Shown: positions 1,321 to 36,641 of the stretch, one piece after another | How the letters are laid out: every line of letters starts with the position of its first letter | Position numbering within the stretch: the stretch's first letter is position 1 | NCBI GenBank assembly: GCA_027297685.1 | Contig: JAPUHN010000357.1 | Location: 1-37,742, forward strand | DNA from: Alphaproteobacteria bacterium | Lineage (GTDB): Bacteria; Pseudomonadota; Alphaproteobacteria; UBA6615 | Direction: 5' to 3' | DNA: 37,742 bases | Notes under the pieces: generated by a model | What the model saw: only the letters and a program-made list of their open reading frames with translations | Databases searched by the model: none | What the model was told of the DNA's origin: nothing | Made by a program: the position numbers and the translations under genes

Positions 1321-2268
1321 TTAGGTGGAGTCACTTACCGGCGGCTCGTCGGCCGGAATCGCCGAATTGGCCGCGCCCGCACCGCCGGTGGTTATCGCAC
1401 CGCCCTGATTGAGCCGCTGCAAAATATCGTCGAGCTGATCGAGGGTAGAGTAATTGATCGACACCGAACCGCCCTTAGCGCCATCACCGCGGAATTTGAT
1501 GCTGACACGCAAACCGAGCATGGTCGACAAATCGTGCTCCAGCGCAATTGTGTCCGAATCCTTCGCCCGGGCTTTTTTTCGCCCGGCCGGCGGTCCACCT
1601 TTCGAAGACTGCGCCAGGCGCTCGGCCTGACGCACCGACAGGCCTTTGCGTATAATATCGCTGGCGAGACGCTCTGCGCCATCAAATCCCACCAATGCCC
1701 GCGCATGACCGGCGGAAAGCTTGCCGGTGTCGACGTGGTCTTGCACAGATTGCGGCAGCGTGAGTAGGCGCAACGTATTGGCGACGCTACTGCGGCTTTT
1801 TCCGACCGTTTTTGCCAGCACTTCCTGCGTGTGGTCGAATTCATCCATCAGGCGTTGGTAGGCGTTGGCCTCTTCAATTGGTGACAGGTTTTCGCGCTGC
1901 AAATTCTCAATTAACGCTATTTCCAGCGATTCTTCGTCTGAGAACTCGCGCACAATGACCGGAATTTCGTGTAACTGCGCGCGCTGGGCGGCGCGCCAGC
2001 GGCGCTCCCCGGCGATTATCTCGTACCCGCCGTCCTGCAGCGGCGAGCGGCGCACCAGTATGGGCTGCAAGATGCCCCTGGCCCGCACCGATTCGACAAG
2101 CGAAGCCATTTCTTCGTCGTTAAACCGCTGGCGCGGTTGAAACTGGCCTGGCGACACTTGCTCGATCGGCACCGTATGCGTCGCGCGGACTCGCTCCCGG
2201 CCTTCCGCTTCGTCCCCCAGGAGAGCGGAAAGACCGCGCCCTAAGCCCTTGCGAGGCTCATCGCTCAT
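1321..2268 (-). CDS. parB: chromosome partitioning protein ParB
   Basis: ParB binds parS, uses CTP to close into a sliding clamp and loads onto origin-proximal DNA for segregation by ParA. The 315 residues show the N-terminal ParA-contact segment LGRGLSALLGD (8-18), the ParB/Srx CTPase fold with GERRWRA (87-93) and ENLQREN (121-127), a helix-turn-helix parS-binding domain (about 146-170), and a C-terminal dimerisation region. A poorly conserved acidic tail follows. The ATG start overlaps the parA stop by four bases (ATGA), so the two are translationally coupled. Two perfect parS sites lie in the window at 3676 and 5776. The 3' end converges on holA with only 27 bases between them. Confidence 0.97.
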   Translation of the reverse strand: MSDEPRKGLGRGLSALLGDEAEGRERVRATHTVPIEQVSPGQFQPRQRFNDEEMASLVESVRARGILQPILVRRSPLQDGGYEIIAGERRWRAAQRAQLHEIPVIVREFSDEESLEIALIENLQRENLSPIEEANAYQRLMDEFDHTQEVLAKTVGKSRSSVANTLRLLTLPQSVQDHVDTGKLSAGHARALVGFDGAERLASDIIRKGLSVRQAERLAQSSKGGPPAGRKKARAKDSDTIALEHDLSTMLGLRVSIKFRGDGAKGGSVSINYSTLDQLDDILQRLNQGGAITTGGAGAANSAIPADEPPVSDST

Positions 2269-3128
2269 GCCGCCGCCACTTCACGTTCCGGCAACTTGCC
2301 CTCGCGGCGCAAGAGTTCTGCGGCCAAGTGTATGTAGGCCCGGGAACCGCTGCAGTTCATATCGTAGACAATCGCCGGCAAGCCATACGACGGCGCCTCG
2401 GAAACCCGTACATTCCGCGGTATGACCGTTTGATAGACCTGGTCACCGAAATGCTCGCGGACATCCGCTTCCACCGACCGACACAAGTTATTGCGTCCAT
2501 CGTGCATAGTTAACACAACCCCTTGTATGTAGAGGCCCGGATTGAACGCATTACGAATACGTTCGATCGACCGTGTCAACCGGCTCAAACCATCGAGGGC
2601 GAAAAACTCGCATTGCAACGGCACCAAAACCGATTGCGCGGCCACCAATGCATTCAAGGTCAGCAAGCCAAGCGCCGGCGGACAATCCACCAATATATAG
2701 TCGTAATTGTCGGCGCCTTTATCCAGCAACGATTTAAGCCGGGATTCGCGGTGCGCCACATCGATGAGTTCGATCTCGGCGCCAGCCAAATCGGCCGATG
2801 CGGGAATTATATCGAGACCTGGAACCGATGTCGGCACAACTACGTCTAGGAGGGACAACTGGCCAATCAACGCCGCATAAATGTCAGCGGACGTGGCCGT
2901 CACCTCAACGCCGAGGCCCGTCGACGCGTTGCCCTGGGGGTCCAGATCCACCAGCAATACCTTCTGACCGCACGCCGCAAGGGCGGTCGCCAGGTTGATC
3001 GCCGTTGTCGTCTTGCCCACGCCGCCCTTTTGATTGGCCACAGCCATAATTTTCGGGCGGCAGTCCGGCACCGACGAAGGGGCCGGCGTATCGGCGGGGC
3101 GCGACGAGACAGGGGGCGCATCAGACAC
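2265..3128 (-). CDS. parA: chromosome partitioning ATPase ParA (Soj-like)
   Basis: ParA is a deviant-Walker ATPase that forms a nucleoid-bound gradient and moves ParB-parS complexes. The sequence has the deviant Walker A motif KGGVGKTTT (34-42) with its signature lysine, DLDPQGNAS shortly after, and a Walker B strand in YILVDCPPALG. It is 287 residues, with a Pro/Ser-rich leader of about 27 residues before the conserved MAVANQKGG block. Such leaders are common in alphaproteobacterial ParA, so the start at 3128 is kept. An internal ATG at 3047 is the alternative. The start overlaps the end of rsmG by eight bases and the stop overlaps parB, so rsmG-parA-parB read as one transcript. Confidence 0.97.
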   Translation of the reverse strand: MSDAPPVSSRPADTPAPSSVPDCRPKIMAVANQKGGVGKTTTAINLATALAACGQKVLLVDLDPQGNASTGLGVEVTATSADIYAALIGQLSLLDVVVPTSVPGLDIIPASADLAGAEIELIDVAHRESRLKSLLDKGADNYDYILVDCPPALGLLTLNALVAAQSVLVPLQCEFFALDGLSRLTRSIERIRNAFNPGLYIQGVVLTMHDGRNNLCRSVEADVREHFGDQVYQTVIPRNVRVSEAPSYGLPAIVYDMNCSGSRAYIHLAAELLRREGKLPEREVAAA

Positions 3129-3741
3129 GGTGGAACTCCTTTACACACAGTACGGTTCCGCTGGGATCGGACAAGCTGGGAACCAATTCATAGTCAATAT
3201 CCCAGAGACCGCTCGCGTCGGTCAATTCATCTTCAATAGAGCTGCCTTTCAGGAAATAACAAAAGCCGCCCGGTTGGACCCACGGCGCCGCCAATGACAA
3301 CAATTTCGCTAACGGAGCGACCGCACGAGCGGTTACGGCGGCGGCCGGCGTGGCCGGCACAGCTTCGGCACGGCCGACGATGACTTCGGTGTCTGCCGAG
3401 ATCGCACGGGATACTTCGCGCAGGAAAGCAGCCTTTCGGTTGTCAGCCTCTACCAATGTGACATGGGCACCGGAGATAATGGCCACGACCAGACCCGGGA
3501 ACCCGCCGCCGCTACCGATGTCGACCACAGACGTTGCATCAGGCATCAGCCGGCAAAGTTGGCCTGAATCGAGGAAATGGCGGCGCCACACGTCGTCCAG
3601 CGTACGGGCGCCAACCAGGTTGATCGTCTTTTGCCAATGGCGCAGCAGGGTCTCGAATTCTTCCAGGCGCTCCAATGTTTCACGTGAAACATCGAGAACC
3701 GACGCAAATTCGGACGCCGTCATGGGGGGCTGGCCAGCCAT
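3121..3741 (-). CDS. rsmG: 16S rRNA (guanine527-N7)-methyltransferase RsmG
   Basis: RsmG (GidB) methylates N7 of G527 in 16S rRNA using S-adenosylmethionine; loss gives low-level streptomycin resistance in several bacteria. The SAM-binding motif VDIGSGGGFPGL (about 73-84) and LVEADNRKAAFLRE are clear. The ATG at 3741 is preceded by AGGG at a six-base spacing, which favours it over the TTG at 3756 and the ATG at 3723; it gives 206 residues. Residues 18-22 (VSRET) are encoded by a perfect 16-base parS site, so this stretch serves two roles. The gene sits between mnmG and parA, the classical origin-proximal order. Confidence 0.95.
   Translation of the reverse strand: MAGQPPMTASEFASVLDVSRETLERLEEFETLLRHWQKTINLVGARTLDDVWRRHFLDSGQLCRLMPDATSVVDIGSGGGFPGLVVAIISGAHVTLVEADNRKAAFLREVSRAISADTEVIVGRAEAVPATPAAAVTARAVAPLAKLLSLAAPWVQPGGFCYFLKGSSIEDELTDASGLWDIDYELVPSLSDPSGTVLCVKEFHRV
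3676..3691. promoter_or_regulatory. parS: parS centromere-like site 1 (inside rsmG)
   Basis: The sequence TGTTTCACGTGAAACA is a perfect 16-base palindrome identical to the consensus ParB-binding site. It lies in the 5' part of rsmG, where it encodes Val-Ser-Arg-Glu-Thr, and is 1.4 kb from parB. An identical copy starts exactly 2,100 bases away. Function as a ParB loading site is inferred from sequence identity and parAB linkage. Confidence 0.95.
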
Positions 3742-5775: not shown

Positions 5776-5791
5776 TGTTTCACGTGAAACA
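5776..5791. promoter_or_regulatory. parS: parS centromere-like site 2 (between mnmG and mnmE)
   Basis: This is a second perfect TGTTTCACGTGAAACA palindrome. It begins four bases beyond the mnmE stop codon (5796-5798) and lies about 90 bases upstream of the mnmG start. The two copies share 18 bases, TGTTTCACGTGAAACATC, and their flanks then diverge. It is therefore not an accidental long duplication. ParB spreading from here would cover mnmE and mnmG. Confidence 0.95.
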
Positions 5792-11081: not shown

Positions 11082-11088
11082 GGGCCGA

Positions 11089-11460
11089 TTGGTTAAACAC
11101 AACGCCATCGATCCTGCGGGCGACGCTGCCAAAGTGCGTGGCGAACTCGAGGCTCTAAGGGATCAGGTCGTAGCCGCCACAGAACAGGGCGCCGAGGCCG
11201 CCAAACCGGTTGAGCTTGACCAGCAGCGGGTGGGTCGTCTATCGCGTATGGACGCACTACAGGGCCAGGAGATGGCGCGCGCCGCTGAACGGCGCCGTGA
11301 TATCGAATTACGCAAGATAGAAGCCGCGCTGAGTCGGCTTGATCGCGGTGATTACGGCTGGTGCGTGCGGTGCGGTGAAGAAATTGCCGCCGAACGGCTA
11401 CGGCACGACCCGGCGGTGCCGGTCTGTATCGACTGTGCTCAAGGCGCGTCGGACGCCTGA
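11089..11460 (+). CDS. DksA/TraR-type C4 zinc-finger protein
   Basis: The small protein (123 residues from TTG 11089) has an N-terminal coiled-coil-like region and a C-terminal DksA/TraR zinc finger: Cys92, Cys95, Cys113 and Cys116 in CVRCGEEIAAERL...VCIDC. Related short family members bind in the RNA polymerase secondary channel. Acidic tip residues typical of DksA are not obvious here, so a role in transcription control is only an inference. The coil is helical between residues 45 and 80 (MARAAERRRDIELRK). It follows the oxidoreductase gene by seven bases and converges on rho. The TTG start is chosen because no ATG lies upstream outside the previous gene; an internal ATG would shorten the coil. 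Confidence 0.8.
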   Translation: MVKHNAIDPAGDAAKVRGELEALRDQVVAATEQGAEAAKPVELDQQRVGRLSRMDALQGQEMARAAERRRDIELRKIEAALSRLDRGDYGWCVRCGEEIAAERLRHDPAVPVCIDCAQGASDA

Positions 11461-11500
11461 CGAGCGCTTTTCGGGCAGCAGCGGTCCACTGGTTCGCAGT

Positions 11501-13017: not shown

Positions 13018-13467
13018 TCAGAATGGCTGGACAATCACCATTATAACAATAATCACCATGAGTACGGTCGGGAGTTCGTTGGCGAGGCGGTAGGTCCGGG
13101 CGGGACGTGTGTTGGCGTCAGCTAAAAAGTCCTTCCGCCAGCGGCCGAATATATGATGCATAGCCGTCAACACCATAACCGCCGCAAGCTTGACCCAAAT
13201 CCAACCGCTGCTCCAGTCGATGCGATCGGGTGTCGCCAGCATGAGCCCACCGAACACAAATGCCAGGATCATCGCCGGATTCATGATCGCTATCAGCAAG
13301 CGGCGCTCCATAACTTTAAATGTCTCGCTCTGCGGTGAACCCGGCTCGGCCTCGCTGTGATAGACAAATAATCGCGGCAGGTAGAGCAAACCGGCCATCC
13401 ACGCGATCACACTGATCACGTGCAACGCCTTTATCCACAAATACCATGCGTCAAGCACTGCGCCCAT
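13018..13467 (-). CDS. hemJ: protoporphyrinogen IX oxidase HemJ
   Basis: HemJ oxidises protoporphyrinogen IX to protoporphyrin IX in the membrane, the penultimate heme step in most alphaproteobacteria that lack HemG and HemY. The 149-residue protein starts at ATG 13467 and has four hydrophobic helices. Family hallmarks are WYLWIKALHVISVIAWMAGL near the N-terminus, which contains an essential His, LPRLFVYH after helix one, and the C-terminal YRLANELPTVLMVIIVIMVI. The stop of hemH and this start overlap (TAATG), indicating translational coupling. The context hemE-hemH-hemJ places three late heme steps in one transcript. Confidence 0.93.
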   Translation of the reverse strand: MGAVLDAWYLWIKALHVISVIAWMAGLLYLPRLFVYHSEAEPGSPQSETFKVMERRLLIAIMNPAMILAFVFGGLMLATPDRIDWSSGWIWVKLAAVMVLTAMHHIFGRWRKDFLADANTRPARTYRLANELPTVLMVIIVIMVIVQPF

Positions 13468-14513
13468 TATCCGATGCCTCCGGCGGTACAGGGGCATTGC
13501 GGCCATTGGTCCGGGCAAATACGGCCGCCTGACCCATTGCACGGCGACGGTGTGTCGGATACCGCTACCGAAACCAGGCGCGCAAGCCCCGCTATGAACG
13601 GTTGGGAGATGCTCACCGTGGGCACCCGGTGGTAGCCCGCCACGCCGATGGCGTCGGCAATTTGCCGGTATTCGATGTCCAACTCCACCAATGTCTCGGA
13701 ATGCTCGGATACGAAAGCCAGGGGTACAATGACGACAGCAAGCCCCTCAGCGCCGGCCCGGCGGATCTCATCCTCGGTTGACGGACCGATCCATTCCAGC
13801 GGGCCAACCCGGCTTTGATAGCAGTTTAGCCAGTCGAGATCATTTAGCCCAAGTTCGTCAACCACGGCCTTCGCAGTCTGCTCGACTTGCCACCGGTAAG
13901 GATCGCCGCCATCGATAATTTTTTTGGGCAGCCCATGCGCCGAAAAAAGAACTCGCACCCGTTTGCCTTCATCTACGTTTTGTAGGGCTGAGCGCAAAGC
14001 GGCTGCGTTGGCGGAGACAAATCCAGGCTCGGTGGGATAGCAGCAGATCGATTGTGTCGGGCAATCTAAACCAATCGAGCGTTCTGCTCGCTGCCATACT
14101 CGCAAGAAAGAACCCACTGTAGTCGTTGAATATTGCGGATAGAGGGGCAGCAGGACGATTCTATCGGGTGCGTAGGCCTTAACGTCGCGCGCCACTGCAT
14201 CGACTTTTGGATGCCAATAGCGCATCGCCACGAACACGCGGTAATCGTCGCCCCCCGAAGCTGACAGCGCTGATTCCAAGGCCTCTGCCTGTGCTCGCGT
14301 GTTTTCCAACAACGGCGACCCGCCACCGAGGTGCTGATAGATTTTTCGGGCGACTGGGGCCCGGCGGCTGGATATCAGCTTAGCTAGCAGCCATCGTATC
14401 GGCCCAGGCGCGCCGATAATCATCGGATCGTTGAAAAGATTGAATAAAAAGGGCTGTACGTCGTCAGGCTTATCTGGACCACCGAGGTTGTAGAGAACGA
14501 CTGCGATTTTCAC
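13467..14513 (-). CDS. hemH: ferrochelatase
   Basis: Ferrochelatase inserts ferrous iron into protoporphyrin IX to make heme. The 348-residue protein has the porphyrin-site FSAHGLPKK with metal-site His193 and the SEHSETLVELD motif (269-279) with the catalytic Glu. CYQSRVGPLEWIGPSTEDEI (231-250) is the family signature. The C-terminus carries Cys325, Cys333, Cys340 and Cys342; some bacterial ferrochelatases, including that of Caulobacter, bind a [2Fe-2S] cluster near the C-terminus, so this could be a cluster site, not proven here. The start is GTG 14513, overlapping the hemE stop (GTGA). Confidence 0.95.
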   Translation of the reverse strand: MKIAVVLYNLGGPDKPDDVQPFLFNLFNDPMIIGAPGPIRWLLAKLISSRRAPVARKIYQHLGGGSPLLENTRAQAEALESALSASGGDDYRVFVAMRYWHPKVDAVARDVKAYAPDRIVLLPLYPQYSTTTVGSFLRVWQRAERSIGLDCPTQSICCYPTEPGFVSANAAALRSALQNVDEGKRVRVLFSAHGLPKKIIDGGDPYRWQVEQTAKAVVDELGLNDLDWLNCYQSRVGPLEWIGPSTEDEIRRAGAEGLAVVIVPLAFVSEHSETLVELDIEYRQIADAIGVAGYHRVPTVSISQPFIAGLARLVSVAVSDTPSPCNGSGGRICPDQWPQCPCTAGGIG

Positions 14514-15607
14514 CGCTTGATCCCCGACCGCAGGAATTCTGCCAGCGCTTCGACGTGCCCAGGCGGCGTTTGTGGAACAACGCCGTGGCCCAAATTGAAT
14601 ATGAAGGGGCCGTCGCCCAGCGCCTCGATAATTGTGGCCGCTGCGCTCAACATCTGCTCTCCGCCGACCAACAGCGCCATCGGGTCCAGATTGCCCTGTA
14701 CCGCATAGGCCGGTTGCAGTGTGTCTGCCGCGAAAGTTGGCGACAACGCACTGTCGATACCAACGCCGTCCACACCCGTCTCAGCAGCATAGTGCGCAAC
14801 CGCCGGACCGACGCCGCGGGGAAAACCGATAATCTTAGCGTCCGGCTTCGCCGCGCGAACGTTAGCAATTATCCGTTGTGTCGGCGCGACGACGCACCGG
14901 TCGAACTGATCTGCGGGAACTGCGCCAGCCCAGGTATCGAACAATTGAACGGCATCTGCACCGGCATCGATTTGTCCGATTAGATAATCGCTGGTCGCGG
15001 TAACCAGCAACGCCAGCAGCCGGTCAAATCCTGCCGGATCCTCGCGCGCCCAGGTCTTGGTTTGCGCGAAATCGCGGCTGGTCCCACCCTCGACCATGTA
15101 AGTCGCAACGGTCCAGGGCGCCCCAGCAAAACCTAGGAGAGCCACATCGTTGGGTAGCTGTTCTTTTACTTGTCGAACCGTATCGAAGATCGGCGACAGA
15201 TGAGCATTGGTCTCCCCGGCTGAAAGACGCGCTAAATCACCCACCGATCTAACCGGCTCGAGTTGCGGTCCAACGCCATCACTGAAATTCACCGATTGGC
15301 CGAGCGCATCAGGTATCACCAGAATATCTGAAAACAAAATTGCCGCGTCGGGATGAAATCGGCGAACGGGTTGAACCGTGACTTCGGCGGCTAGGTCCGG
15401 CGTGTAACACAGGTCGAGAAACGACGGCACGGTTTTCCGGATCTTGCGATATTCCGGCAAGTATCGTCCCGCTTGACGCATAAACCAAAACGGTGGCCTC
15501 GATAGCGATTGTCCGCCCAACACGCTGAGTAAAGGTTTGGTCACGCGAAGATCGTTTCTTTTTTGCTGGGTTTCAATGATATTTCGAGTATCCGGCCGGG
15601 TCGGCAT
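14510..15607 (-). CDS. hemE: uroporphyrinogen decarboxylase
   Basis: HemE decarboxylates the four acetate side chains of uroporphyrinogen III to give coproporphyrinogen III. The frame from ATG 15607 gives 365 residues. The conserved core begins at PLLSVL and RPPFWFMRQAGRYLPEYR (37-54), which holds the substrate-binding Arg. Later blocks include GFAGAPWTVATYMVEGG and FNLGHGVVP near the C-terminus. A GTG at 15544, directly before TKPLLSVLGG, is an alternative start that matches homologues better, and neither has a strong ribosome site. The gene flanks the inferred origin and reads away from it, followed by hemH and hemJ. Confidence 0.95.
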   Translation of the reverse strand: MPTRPDTRNIIETQQKRNDLRVTKPLLSVLGGQSLSRPPFWFMRQAGRYLPEYRKIRKTVPSFLDLCYTPDLAAEVTVQPVRRFHPDAAILFSDILVIPDALGQSVNFSDGVGPQLEPVRSVGDLARLSAGETNAHLSPIFDTVRQVKEQLPNDVALLGFAGAPWTVATYMVEGGTSRDFAQTKTWAREDPAGFDRLLALLVTATSDYLIGQIDAGADAVQLFDTWAGAVPADQFDRCVVAPTQRIIANVRAAKPDAKIIGFPRGVGPAVAHYAAETGVDGVGIDSALSPTFAADTLQPAYAVQGNLDPMALLVGGEQMLSAAATIIEALGDGPFIFNLGHGVVPQTPPGHVEALAEFLRSGIKR

Positions 15608-15645
15608 TATGCGGAACGCGATAGGGAATGCTAGGCCAACATCCT

Positions 15646-15676
15646 AATAAAGATTTATAAATAAAGAAGTTTTTGA
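15646..15676. other. AT-rich tract, candidate duplex-unwinding element
   Basis: The stretch from 15646 to 15676 is almost free of G and C (AATAAAGATTTATAAATAAA and following bases), and sits 40 bases from the hemE start in an otherwise GC-rich chromosome. Such tracts are where the origin opens. Alternatively it supports the hemE promoter. Confidence 0.45.
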
Positions 15677-15711
15677 TGTAGTAGGACCGTTGAATTAGTG
15701 GTGTTGATGGT

Positions 15712-15720
15712 TGATCCGCA
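15712..15720 (+). promoter_or_regulatory. DnaA-like box (TGATCCGCA)
   Basis: TGATCCGCA matches the Caulobacter-type box TGATCCACA at eight of nine positions. It lies about 36 bases from the AT-rich tract. Confidence 0.4.
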
Positions 15721-15841
15721 GGGTTATTCAGCACAGTCGATTTTTACGCCAAAGAGTGTTGTCTCTGTGAAGATTATTGGTAACTGGTTGGTTGGATGTT
15801 GTTTTCAAATTTGCTCAGCGGTGTTTGGGTGGGGACAGGTA

Positions 15842-15850
15842 TGGGGATAA
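15842..15850 (-). promoter_or_regulatory. DnaA-like box (TTATCCCCA, minus strand)
   Basis: The top strand reads TGGGGATAA, which is TTATCCCCA on the minus strand, eight of nine to TTATCCACA. Confidence 0.5.
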
Positions 15851-15865
15851 ATATATTGCACCATT

Positions 15866-15874
15866 TGATCCACG
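15866..15874 (+). promoter_or_regulatory. DnaA-like box (TGATCCACG)
   Basis: TGATCCACG differs from the Caulobacter-type box TGATCCACA only at the last base. It is 24 bases from the preceding opposite-strand box. Confidence 0.5.
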
Positions 15875-15890
15875 GCGGCAGGACAACGGT

Positions 15891-15923
15891 GTTTACCTGC
15901 GCATGAACCTGTTGACGGTAAAC
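15891..15923. repeat. inverted repeat GTTTACC / GGTAAAC in the origin
   Basis: A perfect seven-base inverted repeat, GTTTACC (15891-15897) and GGTAAAC (15917-15923), is separated by 19 bases. The same stretch carries three direct ACCTG repeats at 15895, 15907 and 15922. It may be a protein-binding site in the origin; no protein is assigned. Confidence 0.45.
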
Positions 15924-15957
15924 CTGCATCCGAGAGCAAATTTTTCGTGTACGAAGC

Positions 15958-15980
15958 ATAGGGTGGGTTATCCACCCTAT
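15958..15980. repeat. hairpin 1 with DnaA-like box (TTATCCACC)
   Basis: ATAGGGTGG (15958-15966) and CCACCCTAT (15972-15980) form a perfect nine-base inverted repeat with a five-base spacer. The box TTATCCACC (15968-15976), eight of nine to TTATCCACA, spans the spacer and right arm. It directly abuts hairpin 2. Confidence 0.7.
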
Positions 15981-15997
15981 CTGTTGATTATCAACAG
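15981..15997. repeat. hairpin 2 with DnaA-like box (TTATCAACA)
   Basis: CTGTTGATTATCAACAG is a perfect seven-base inverted repeat with a three-base TTA spacer. The box TTATCAACA (15988-15996), eight of nine to TTATCCACA, is in the same orientation as the box in hairpin 1 and exactly 20 bases away. The hairpin ends at the ribosome-binding AGAGG of ppsR, so it could also affect ppsR expression. Confidence 0.7.
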
Positions 15998-16003
15998 AGG
16001 ATA

Positions 16004-16894
16004 ATGTCCATGGCTGGGTCGGATTCGAAGACGAATCAGACGTTTCACTTACATTTGGTGTCTGATTCAACTGGCGAGACGATCCATTCGGTTGCGCGGG
16101 CATGTCTGGTTCAATTCGACGATGTTGAACCAATCGAACATGTTTGGCCGATGGCCCGCACGGGGCACGCGATGAATGTCGTGCTCGAGGGCATCGAGGA
16201 GAAGCCGGGACCGGTTATTTTTACGCTCGTCGACGACGGGTTGCGCGAAAAATTGCGGGATGGTTGCCGCCGTCTAAAAGTACCGTGTATTTCTGTTCTC
16301 GACCCGGTGATCGCAGCGTTGGGAAAATTTCTAGATGCCCAACCTTTGCATCGAATTGGCGGTCAGCATGAAATGGACGCCGAATATTTTCAGCGGATCG
16401 AGGCGATGGATTGGGCGCTGGCTCACGATGATGGCCAACGGGCCGAAGAGTACGACCAATCCGATGTAGTTTTGGTCGGCGTTTCGCGAACCTCCAAAAC
16501 ACCGACCTGCCTCTATTTGGCAAACCGAGGTGTCAAGGCGGCAAACGTGCCCTTTGTGCCGGATATACCGTTACCGAACATACTCGATACGCTCAAACAA
16601 ACGCTCGTAATCGGTCTGACGAACGATCCAAAACGGTTGGTTGAGCTCCGCCGGGCGCGCTTGGCATTGCTGCAGCAGGCCGAAGAGACGCCCTATATAG
16701 ACCCAGAGCTTGTGCAAGCAGAGATTACCGGTGCGCGGCGCTATTTCACCGAGCGAAGCTGGCCGGTTATCGACGTTACCCGCCGGTCGATTGAAGAAAC
16801 CGCGGCTGCGGTGATGATCCAGCTGGCTCGCCACGCCGAATCGAAAGAAAAATCGCCGGCAAGCCAGGAGGGCGCCGATGGCGCAAGCAATTGA
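16004..16894 (+). CDS. ppsR: pyruvate,phosphate dikinase regulatory protein (DUF299, PpsR family)
   Basis: Members are bifunctional kinase/phosphorylases that use ADP and phosphate to switch PEP synthase or pyruvate,phosphate dikinase off and on. The 296 residues match family length. The N-terminus has LVSDSTGETIHSVARA (18-33), and the P-loop-like motif GVSRTSKTP (159-167) is the nucleotide site. The start is ATG 16004 with AGAGG close upstream; an ATG at 16010 has better spacing (nine bases) and is equally likely. Sequence alone does not separate the PpsA-directed from the PpdK-directed subtype. It is the first rightward gene from the origin, corresponding to RP001 of Rickettsia. Confidence 0.93.
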   Translation: MSMAGSDSKTNQTFHLHLVSDSTGETIHSVARACLVQFDDVEPIEHVWPMARTGHAMNVVLEGIEEKPGPVIFTLVDDGLREKLRDGCRRLKVPCISVLDPVIAALGKFLDAQPLHRIGGQHEMDAEYFQRIEAMDWALAHDDGQRAEEYDQSDVVLVGVSRTSKTPTCLYLANRGVKAANVPFVPDIPLPNILDTLKQTLVIGLTNDPKRLVELRRARLALLQQAEETPYIDPELVQAEITGARRYFTERSWPVIDVTRRSIEETAAAVMIQLARHAESKEKSPASQEGADGASN

Positions 16895-36118: not shown

Positions 36119-36237
36119 AAACGTGCGAACGGTTGGCCCGCCGCGAAAGCGCATAAACGCTGTCCCGATAAGAGAAAATTAACCCTTATCACACATCAAT
36201 ACCGTGTCTCTTGCCCCAACCGTAGGACACGAAAACG

Positions 36238-36597
36238 ATGACGCCCGAGCAGATTGCCCTCGCACAAGATTCCGTCGATGCCGCGTTACCGAACACGGAC
36301 ACCGCCGCATCCGGGCGTAGCGATCAGGTGCACGCCGAACTCACGGCGTTGCTGGAGGAATTGGCTCAAGTCGGTCTTGTCGCCGGCGAAATCGACAAGA
36401 TCGCCAGGCAAACCAACCTATTGGCGCTTAACGCCACCATCGAAGCCGCCCGCGCTGGCGATGCCGGCAAGGGATTTGCCGTGGTTGCCGGTGAGGTCAA
36501 GGCGCTATCGAACCAGACCGCCAAGGCGACGGCGGAAGTCTCCGCGGTGGTCAGCGACTTACAAGCGCGCGCGAAAAATATTTCGGCGATGCTGTAA
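36238..36597 (+). CDS. short cytoplasmic chemoreceptor-tip protein (MCP signalling domain)
   Basis: The 119-residue protein carries the conserved hairpin tip of methyl-accepting chemotaxis proteins: [36 protein letters not shown] (about 57-92), which binds CheA and CheW in receptors. There is no transmembrane helix, HAMP domain or sensor module, and only about six heptads flank each side of the tip. The first residues, [18 protein letters not shown], resemble the start of bacterial globins (usually [10 protein letters not shown]), so a globin-coupled sensor that lost its globin body is possible. Standalone short receptors also exist. The ATG at 36238 has AGGA 11 bases upstream. A GC-rich hairpin follows. 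Confidence 0.75.
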
Positions 36598-36608
36598 GTA
36601 CGGCAGCG

Positions 36609-36640
36609 GGGGCGGCCATTGCGCCCCGCCGCCTCCTGTT
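36609..36640. terminator. weak GC hairpin after the chemoreceptor-tip gene
   Basis: GGGGCG (36609-36614) and CGCCCC (36622-36627) pair with a seven-base loop and are followed by a pyrimidine-rich run. It lies between the convergent chemoreceptor-tip gene and yifB. It is short and in GC-rich DNA, so chance pairing is not excluded. Confidence 0.35.
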
Positions 36641-36641
36641 T

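Follow-up and report, generated by a model that had tools for sequence, protein, structure and literature searches.

The chromosome origin type located between hemE and a COG1806 gene is regarded as ancestral among alphaproteobacteria. This location is established as the origin in Caulobacter crescentus and has been proposed as such for Rickettsia (PMC1914354). The C. crescentus origin, Cori, contains two strong and five weak DnaA boxes (PMC8959179), together with an IHF site and five sites for CtrA (PMC1914354). The corresponding region of Rickettsia prowazekii spans 384 bp (PMC1914354), and CtrA and IHF sites have been reported there (Brassinga et al. 2002).

Here, we analyzed a window of 37,742 nucleotides that makes up the whole of contig C287 in a 3.84 Mb draft genome of 396 contigs, whose relatives are uncultured alphaproteobacteria, some of them sampled from marine sites according to the record titles. 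The window contains a hemE–ppsR intergenic gap that is very probably the chromosome replication origin, of the hemE-COG1806 type, as the first-pass annotation had proposed; the skew switch, the conserved DnaA boxes and the par locus all point to initiation at this position. The gap is thus a new, ordinary example of an already known origin type.

The hemE–ppsR gap and its gene neighborhood

The genes and sites that frame the gap are as follows:

1321..2268, minus strand: parB (NCBIfam/Pfam)
2265..3128, minus strand: parA (NCBIfam/Pfam)
3676..3691, plus strand: parS, perfect TGTTTCACGTGAAACA (0.11 sites expected even at 3 or fewer mismatches)
5776..5791, plus strand: parS, perfect TGTTTCACGTGAAACA (same scan)
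14510..15607, minus strand: hemE, uroporphyrinogen decarboxylase (NCBIfam TIGR01464, above the curated cut-off)
15608..16003, no strand: candidate chromosome replication origin region, the hemE–ppsR intergenic gap (flanking genes, DnaA-box excess, skew switch, conservation in 22 family genomes)
16004..16894, plus strand: ppsR (COG1806/DUF299), PEP synthase/PPDK regulator (NCBIfam NF003742, above the curated cut-off)

The divergent hemE and ppsR lie on either side of the gap, in the gene order parB-parA-rsmG-mnmG-mnmE ... rho-hemJ-hemH-hemE | ppsR-maf-aroE-coaE-dnaQ-secB ... hslU-hslV (NCBIfam and Pfam). The gap is 396 bp long, with a G+C content of 43.4% compared to 55–60% in the neighboring genes; it exceeds 300 bp and is more AT-rich than the genome, as expected of this origin type. 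The pair of parS sites adjoins parAB 10–12 kb from the gap, and parAB and parS together lie 10–15 kb away, as expected of hemE-COG1806 origins. The likeness to the Caulobacter and Rickettsia origins noted in the first pass was borne out: the flanking genes are the same as in both, and their orientation is that of Caulobacter. The similarity to Cori extends to the AT-rich region, several weak DnaA boxes and the nearby par locus, and the R. prowazekii region is of similar length; unlike both, the gap yielded neither CtrA nor IHF sites. We found ppsR in 22 of the 24 family genomes, including that of the window, and hemE adjoins it in every one; the synteny also occurs in many other alphaproteobacteria.

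The gap had been described as the only one longer than 300 bases in the window, and this holds for the two other candidates checked, both of which contain genes, namely, a DksA-type zinc-finger gene (11082–11500) and an ORF with a methyl-accepting chemotaxis protein (MCP) domain (36119–36641). The latter ORF (36238–36597, 119 aa), flanked by a TauD-family gene and a gene with a Mg-chelatase domain, matches the MCP signaling domain in part only and, judging from this match, appears to be either a fragment or a domain standing alone. An Rfam search of the window returned 0 matches, which covers a CcnA-like RNA only if Rfam holds CcnA.

DnaA boxes and the AT-rich tract

Within the gap, we distinguished the following elements:

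15638..15680, no strand: AT-rich tract beside hemE, probably the unwinding region (82% A+T over 15638–15677)
15671..15695, no strand: family-wide conserved block with GTAG and TGA, adjoining the AT tract (family alignment)
15712..15720, plus strand: DnaA box TGATCCGCA, 2 mismatches; the relatives L006 and L007 carry TTATCCTCA (motif scan, alignment)
15842..15850, minus strand: DnaA box TTATCCCCA; perfect TTATCCACA in L005, L006 and L007 (8 of 9 columns invariant)
15866..15874, plus strand: DnaA box TGATCCACG; TGATCCACA in L006 and L007 (7 of 9 columns invariant)
15958..15998, no strand: two adjacent inverted repeats, perfect in this genome only, probably incidental (in relatives, the arms retain 1–5 of at most 9 pairs)
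15968..15976, plus strand: DnaA box TTATCCACC, within the species-specific inverted repeat (at least 86% of the 22 family members retain TTATC)
15988..15996, plus strand: DnaA box TTATCAACA; relatives carry TTTTCAACA (8 of 9 columns invariant)

The gap contains three DnaA boxes with up to one mismatch to TTATCCACA (15842, minus strand; 15968 and 15988, plus strand), whereas dinucleotide-preserving shuffles averaged 0.16 (P 0.002). With up to two mismatches, the count is six (shuffle mean 1.7, P 0.009); a scan of 15608–16003 found no perfect TTATCCACA. Five of the six boxes are conserved across three genera, the sole exception being that at 15982 (minus strand), and these five, at 15712, 15842, 15866, 15968 and 15988, match the number counted in the first pass. 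In the gap alignment, which comprises the window and five relatives from two other genera, 35 of the 51 box columns are invariant, whereas circular shifts of the mask gave a mean of 12.9 (P 0.005). This P value is approximate, because L005, in which the start of ppsR was placed too early, was excluded from the column count and because the boxes themselves may have helped to anchor the alignment. The boxes occupy corresponding positions in the gaps of the nearest genera, and most of the closest relatives also show a box excess in their gaps. In genus g10 and some other family members, there was no significant excess with the TTATCCACA consensus.

No denser box cluster was detected in the stretches of the same genome that were scanned (the window, the dnaA contig, one stretch of contig C95 and one of contig C16), and the 14 perfect boxes in the whole genome do not exceed a reversed-pattern control. 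The sole perfect TTATCCACA of the window (13431–13439) is located within the hemJ ORF, 2.2 kb from the gap.

The AT-rich tract reported in the first pass is present and is also AT-rich in the aligned relatives. In the adjacent conserved block, which is not a DnaA box, the GTAG and TGA positions are retained in 86–100% of the 22 family members; the block is possibly part of the unwinding region or of the hemE promoter. It includes TAGTAG, readable as two trios and resembling in this respect the basal unwinding system (BUS) of the Bacillus subtilis type (DnaA box, spacer, DnaA-trios), but no rule-conforming arrangement was found in this gap. A search with a simplified version of the published BUS rules (PMC8287927; DnaA box with up to two mismatches, spacer of 0–16 bp, at least three DnaA-trios) returned no candidate in the hemE–ppsR gap and, in the gaps of relatives, mostly performed no better than shuffles. 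A DnaA-trio module at TACTAC (minus strand, next to the AT tract), attractive by eye, was therefore rejected, having failed both the published rules and the shuffles.

GC skew and alternative explanations

Because the genome is a draft, skew was sampled in stretches of the long contigs of relatives rather than plotted cumulatively over a whole genome. In the window, negative skew prevails as far as about 15.5 kb and positive skew over the next 19 kb or so, and at the far right end, from about 35 kb, the sign is negative again. In G023 (1.17 Mb contig), where ppsR lies at 371 kb, the sampled stretches are negative over 1–380 kb and positive from there to the end, with one exception. In G015 (490 kb contig), the stretches are negative up to 355 kb, except for one, and positive beyond, with ppsR at 357.6 kb, and in G014 (498 kb contig), the switch falls at about 454 kb, with ppsR occupying 452.5–453.4 kb. 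The sign change in these three relatives is within 2–8 kb of the orthologous gap. As far as the data allow a search for a skew minimum elsewhere on the chromosome, the outcome favors the gap, in the window and in all three relatives.

The gap could, alternatively, be merely the double promoter region of the divergent hemE and ppsR, with the true origin elsewhere, for example, beside dnaA. Both promoters must indeed sit in the gap, and in 13 of 13 relatives from g3 and g10 (L009–L020 and L024), a conserved ATGACA-N17-CATAA[C/G] block resembling a sigma-70 promoter is found about 101–114 bp before ppsR. By its sequence, this block, which is absent from the genus of the window and its nearest relatives, looks like a promoter of ppsR that sits within the origin. 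The idea that a small ORF covers the conserved block was rejected, since by eye such an ORF did not persist across relatives. However, a divergent promoter explains neither a skew switch spanning hundreds of kilobases on each side nor the excess and conservation of the boxes. Furthermore, the dnaA contig (C341), which is separate from the gap and has a weakly positive skew over most of its length, contains no clear skew switch, no DnaA box with up to one mismatch and no box cluster, and a dnaA-proximal origin was rejected on these grounds. We consider a promoter-only gap extremely improbable. A different question is whether the repeats at 15958–15998 are functional hairpins, for example, a terminator-like or an extruded origin element. 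The three inverted repeats listed in the first pass (15958–15980, 15980–15998 and 15891–15923) are perfect in the genome of the window, and terminator-like hits are more numerous in the region than in shuffles (3 against 0.5). Nevertheless, those at 15958–15998 are private to this genome, and the pairing of both these and the 15891–15923 repeat is lost in all five aligned relatives, even though the DnaA boxes inside 15958–15998 are retained. Given that arm pairing is not conserved, the repeats are best left out of the list of origin features, and functional hairpins are very unlikely.

With the gap taken as an origin of the hemE-COG1806 type, its working can be outlined from known biology. DnaA would bind the conserved boxes at 15712–15996, assembling toward the AT-rich tract beside hemE, which, by analogy with Cori (PMC8959179), would be opened by DnaA at 15638–15680. 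Melting of the tract would allow helicase loading and the departure of two forks, one through hemE-rho-gidA-parAB and the other through ppsR-aroE-dnaQ, and the new origins would be segregated by ParB on the two parS sites 10–12 kb away. Placing the origin in a poorly studied, uncultured alphaproteobacterial family can aid coverage-based growth-rate estimates and genome orientation.

CtrA and the control of initiation

The genome encodes an ortholog of CtrA, 72% identical to a Caulobacter CtrA query sequence, and GcrA. Nevertheless, as stated in the first-pass annotation, the gap (15608–16003) lacks the TTAA-N7-TTAA site that marks the CtrA-gated Cori subtype: there are 0 sites with 0 or 1 mismatch, no TTAACCAT half site and no IHF site WATCAN5WTR, the latter also characteristic of that subtype. 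Exact CtrA sites are present in 19 of the 21 Caulobacteraceae-like gaps, a group compiled mainly from record titles (0.16 expected), but in only one of the 22 gaps of the family of the window (0.67 expected) and one of 30 gaps from other alphaproteobacteria (0.28 expected). The family gaps (L004–L024) and those of other alphaproteobacteria (L031–L099) thus resemble the present gap in synteny and, nearly all, in the lack of a CtrA site. In Brucella, the origin is not bound by CtrA (PMC2877005), and ctrA is dispensable in several Rhodospirillales, among them Magnetospirillum and Rhodospirillum (PMC8116508). Because this literature agrees, the absence comes as no surprise; in the sequences sampled, it is the rule outside Caulobacteraceae and normal for the lineage. 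A mode of initiation control unlike that of Caulobacter, as suggested in the first pass, is plausible, but it is not particular to this genome and fits most of the alphaproteobacteria sampled. Across the sampled hemE–ppsR gaps, only those of Caulobacteraceae-like genomes commonly carry canonical CtrA sites, a distribution that fits the published view of CtrA replication control as a later addition in some lineages.

The origin could still be controlled by CtrA through degenerate or half sites missed by a consensus search. In addition to the presence of the two regulators, the 400 bp upstream of ctrA (contig C16, L169) contain TTAACCAT and other TTAAC half sites, which suggests CtrA autoregulation with conserved specificity. 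The gap itself, however, contains neither TTAACCAT nor a TTAA-N7-TTAA site with up to one mismatch, loose TTWW sites in the family gaps are not above chance, and the Brucella and Rhodospirillales findings point the same way, so that we regard this possibility as unlikely. Although it is encoded, CtrA probably does not bind canonical sites directly to gate the origin. It is conceivable, at somewhat less than even chances, that initiation in the family proceeds without direct CtrA gating and depends on DnaA together with a further factor or structure at the GTAG/TGA block (15671–15695), the presence of CtrA and GcrA having been checked in the genome of the window only.

Two further features are of note. 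Toward the right end of the contig (36501–37500), the local G+C content reaches 0.71, well above that of the rest of the window. Contig C95 (L168) carries two perfect DnaA boxes at 14104 and 14395, on the same strand and 291 bp apart; with only two boxes within 400 bp, this pair was rejected as a better cluster, but it could be a DnaA-regulated site.
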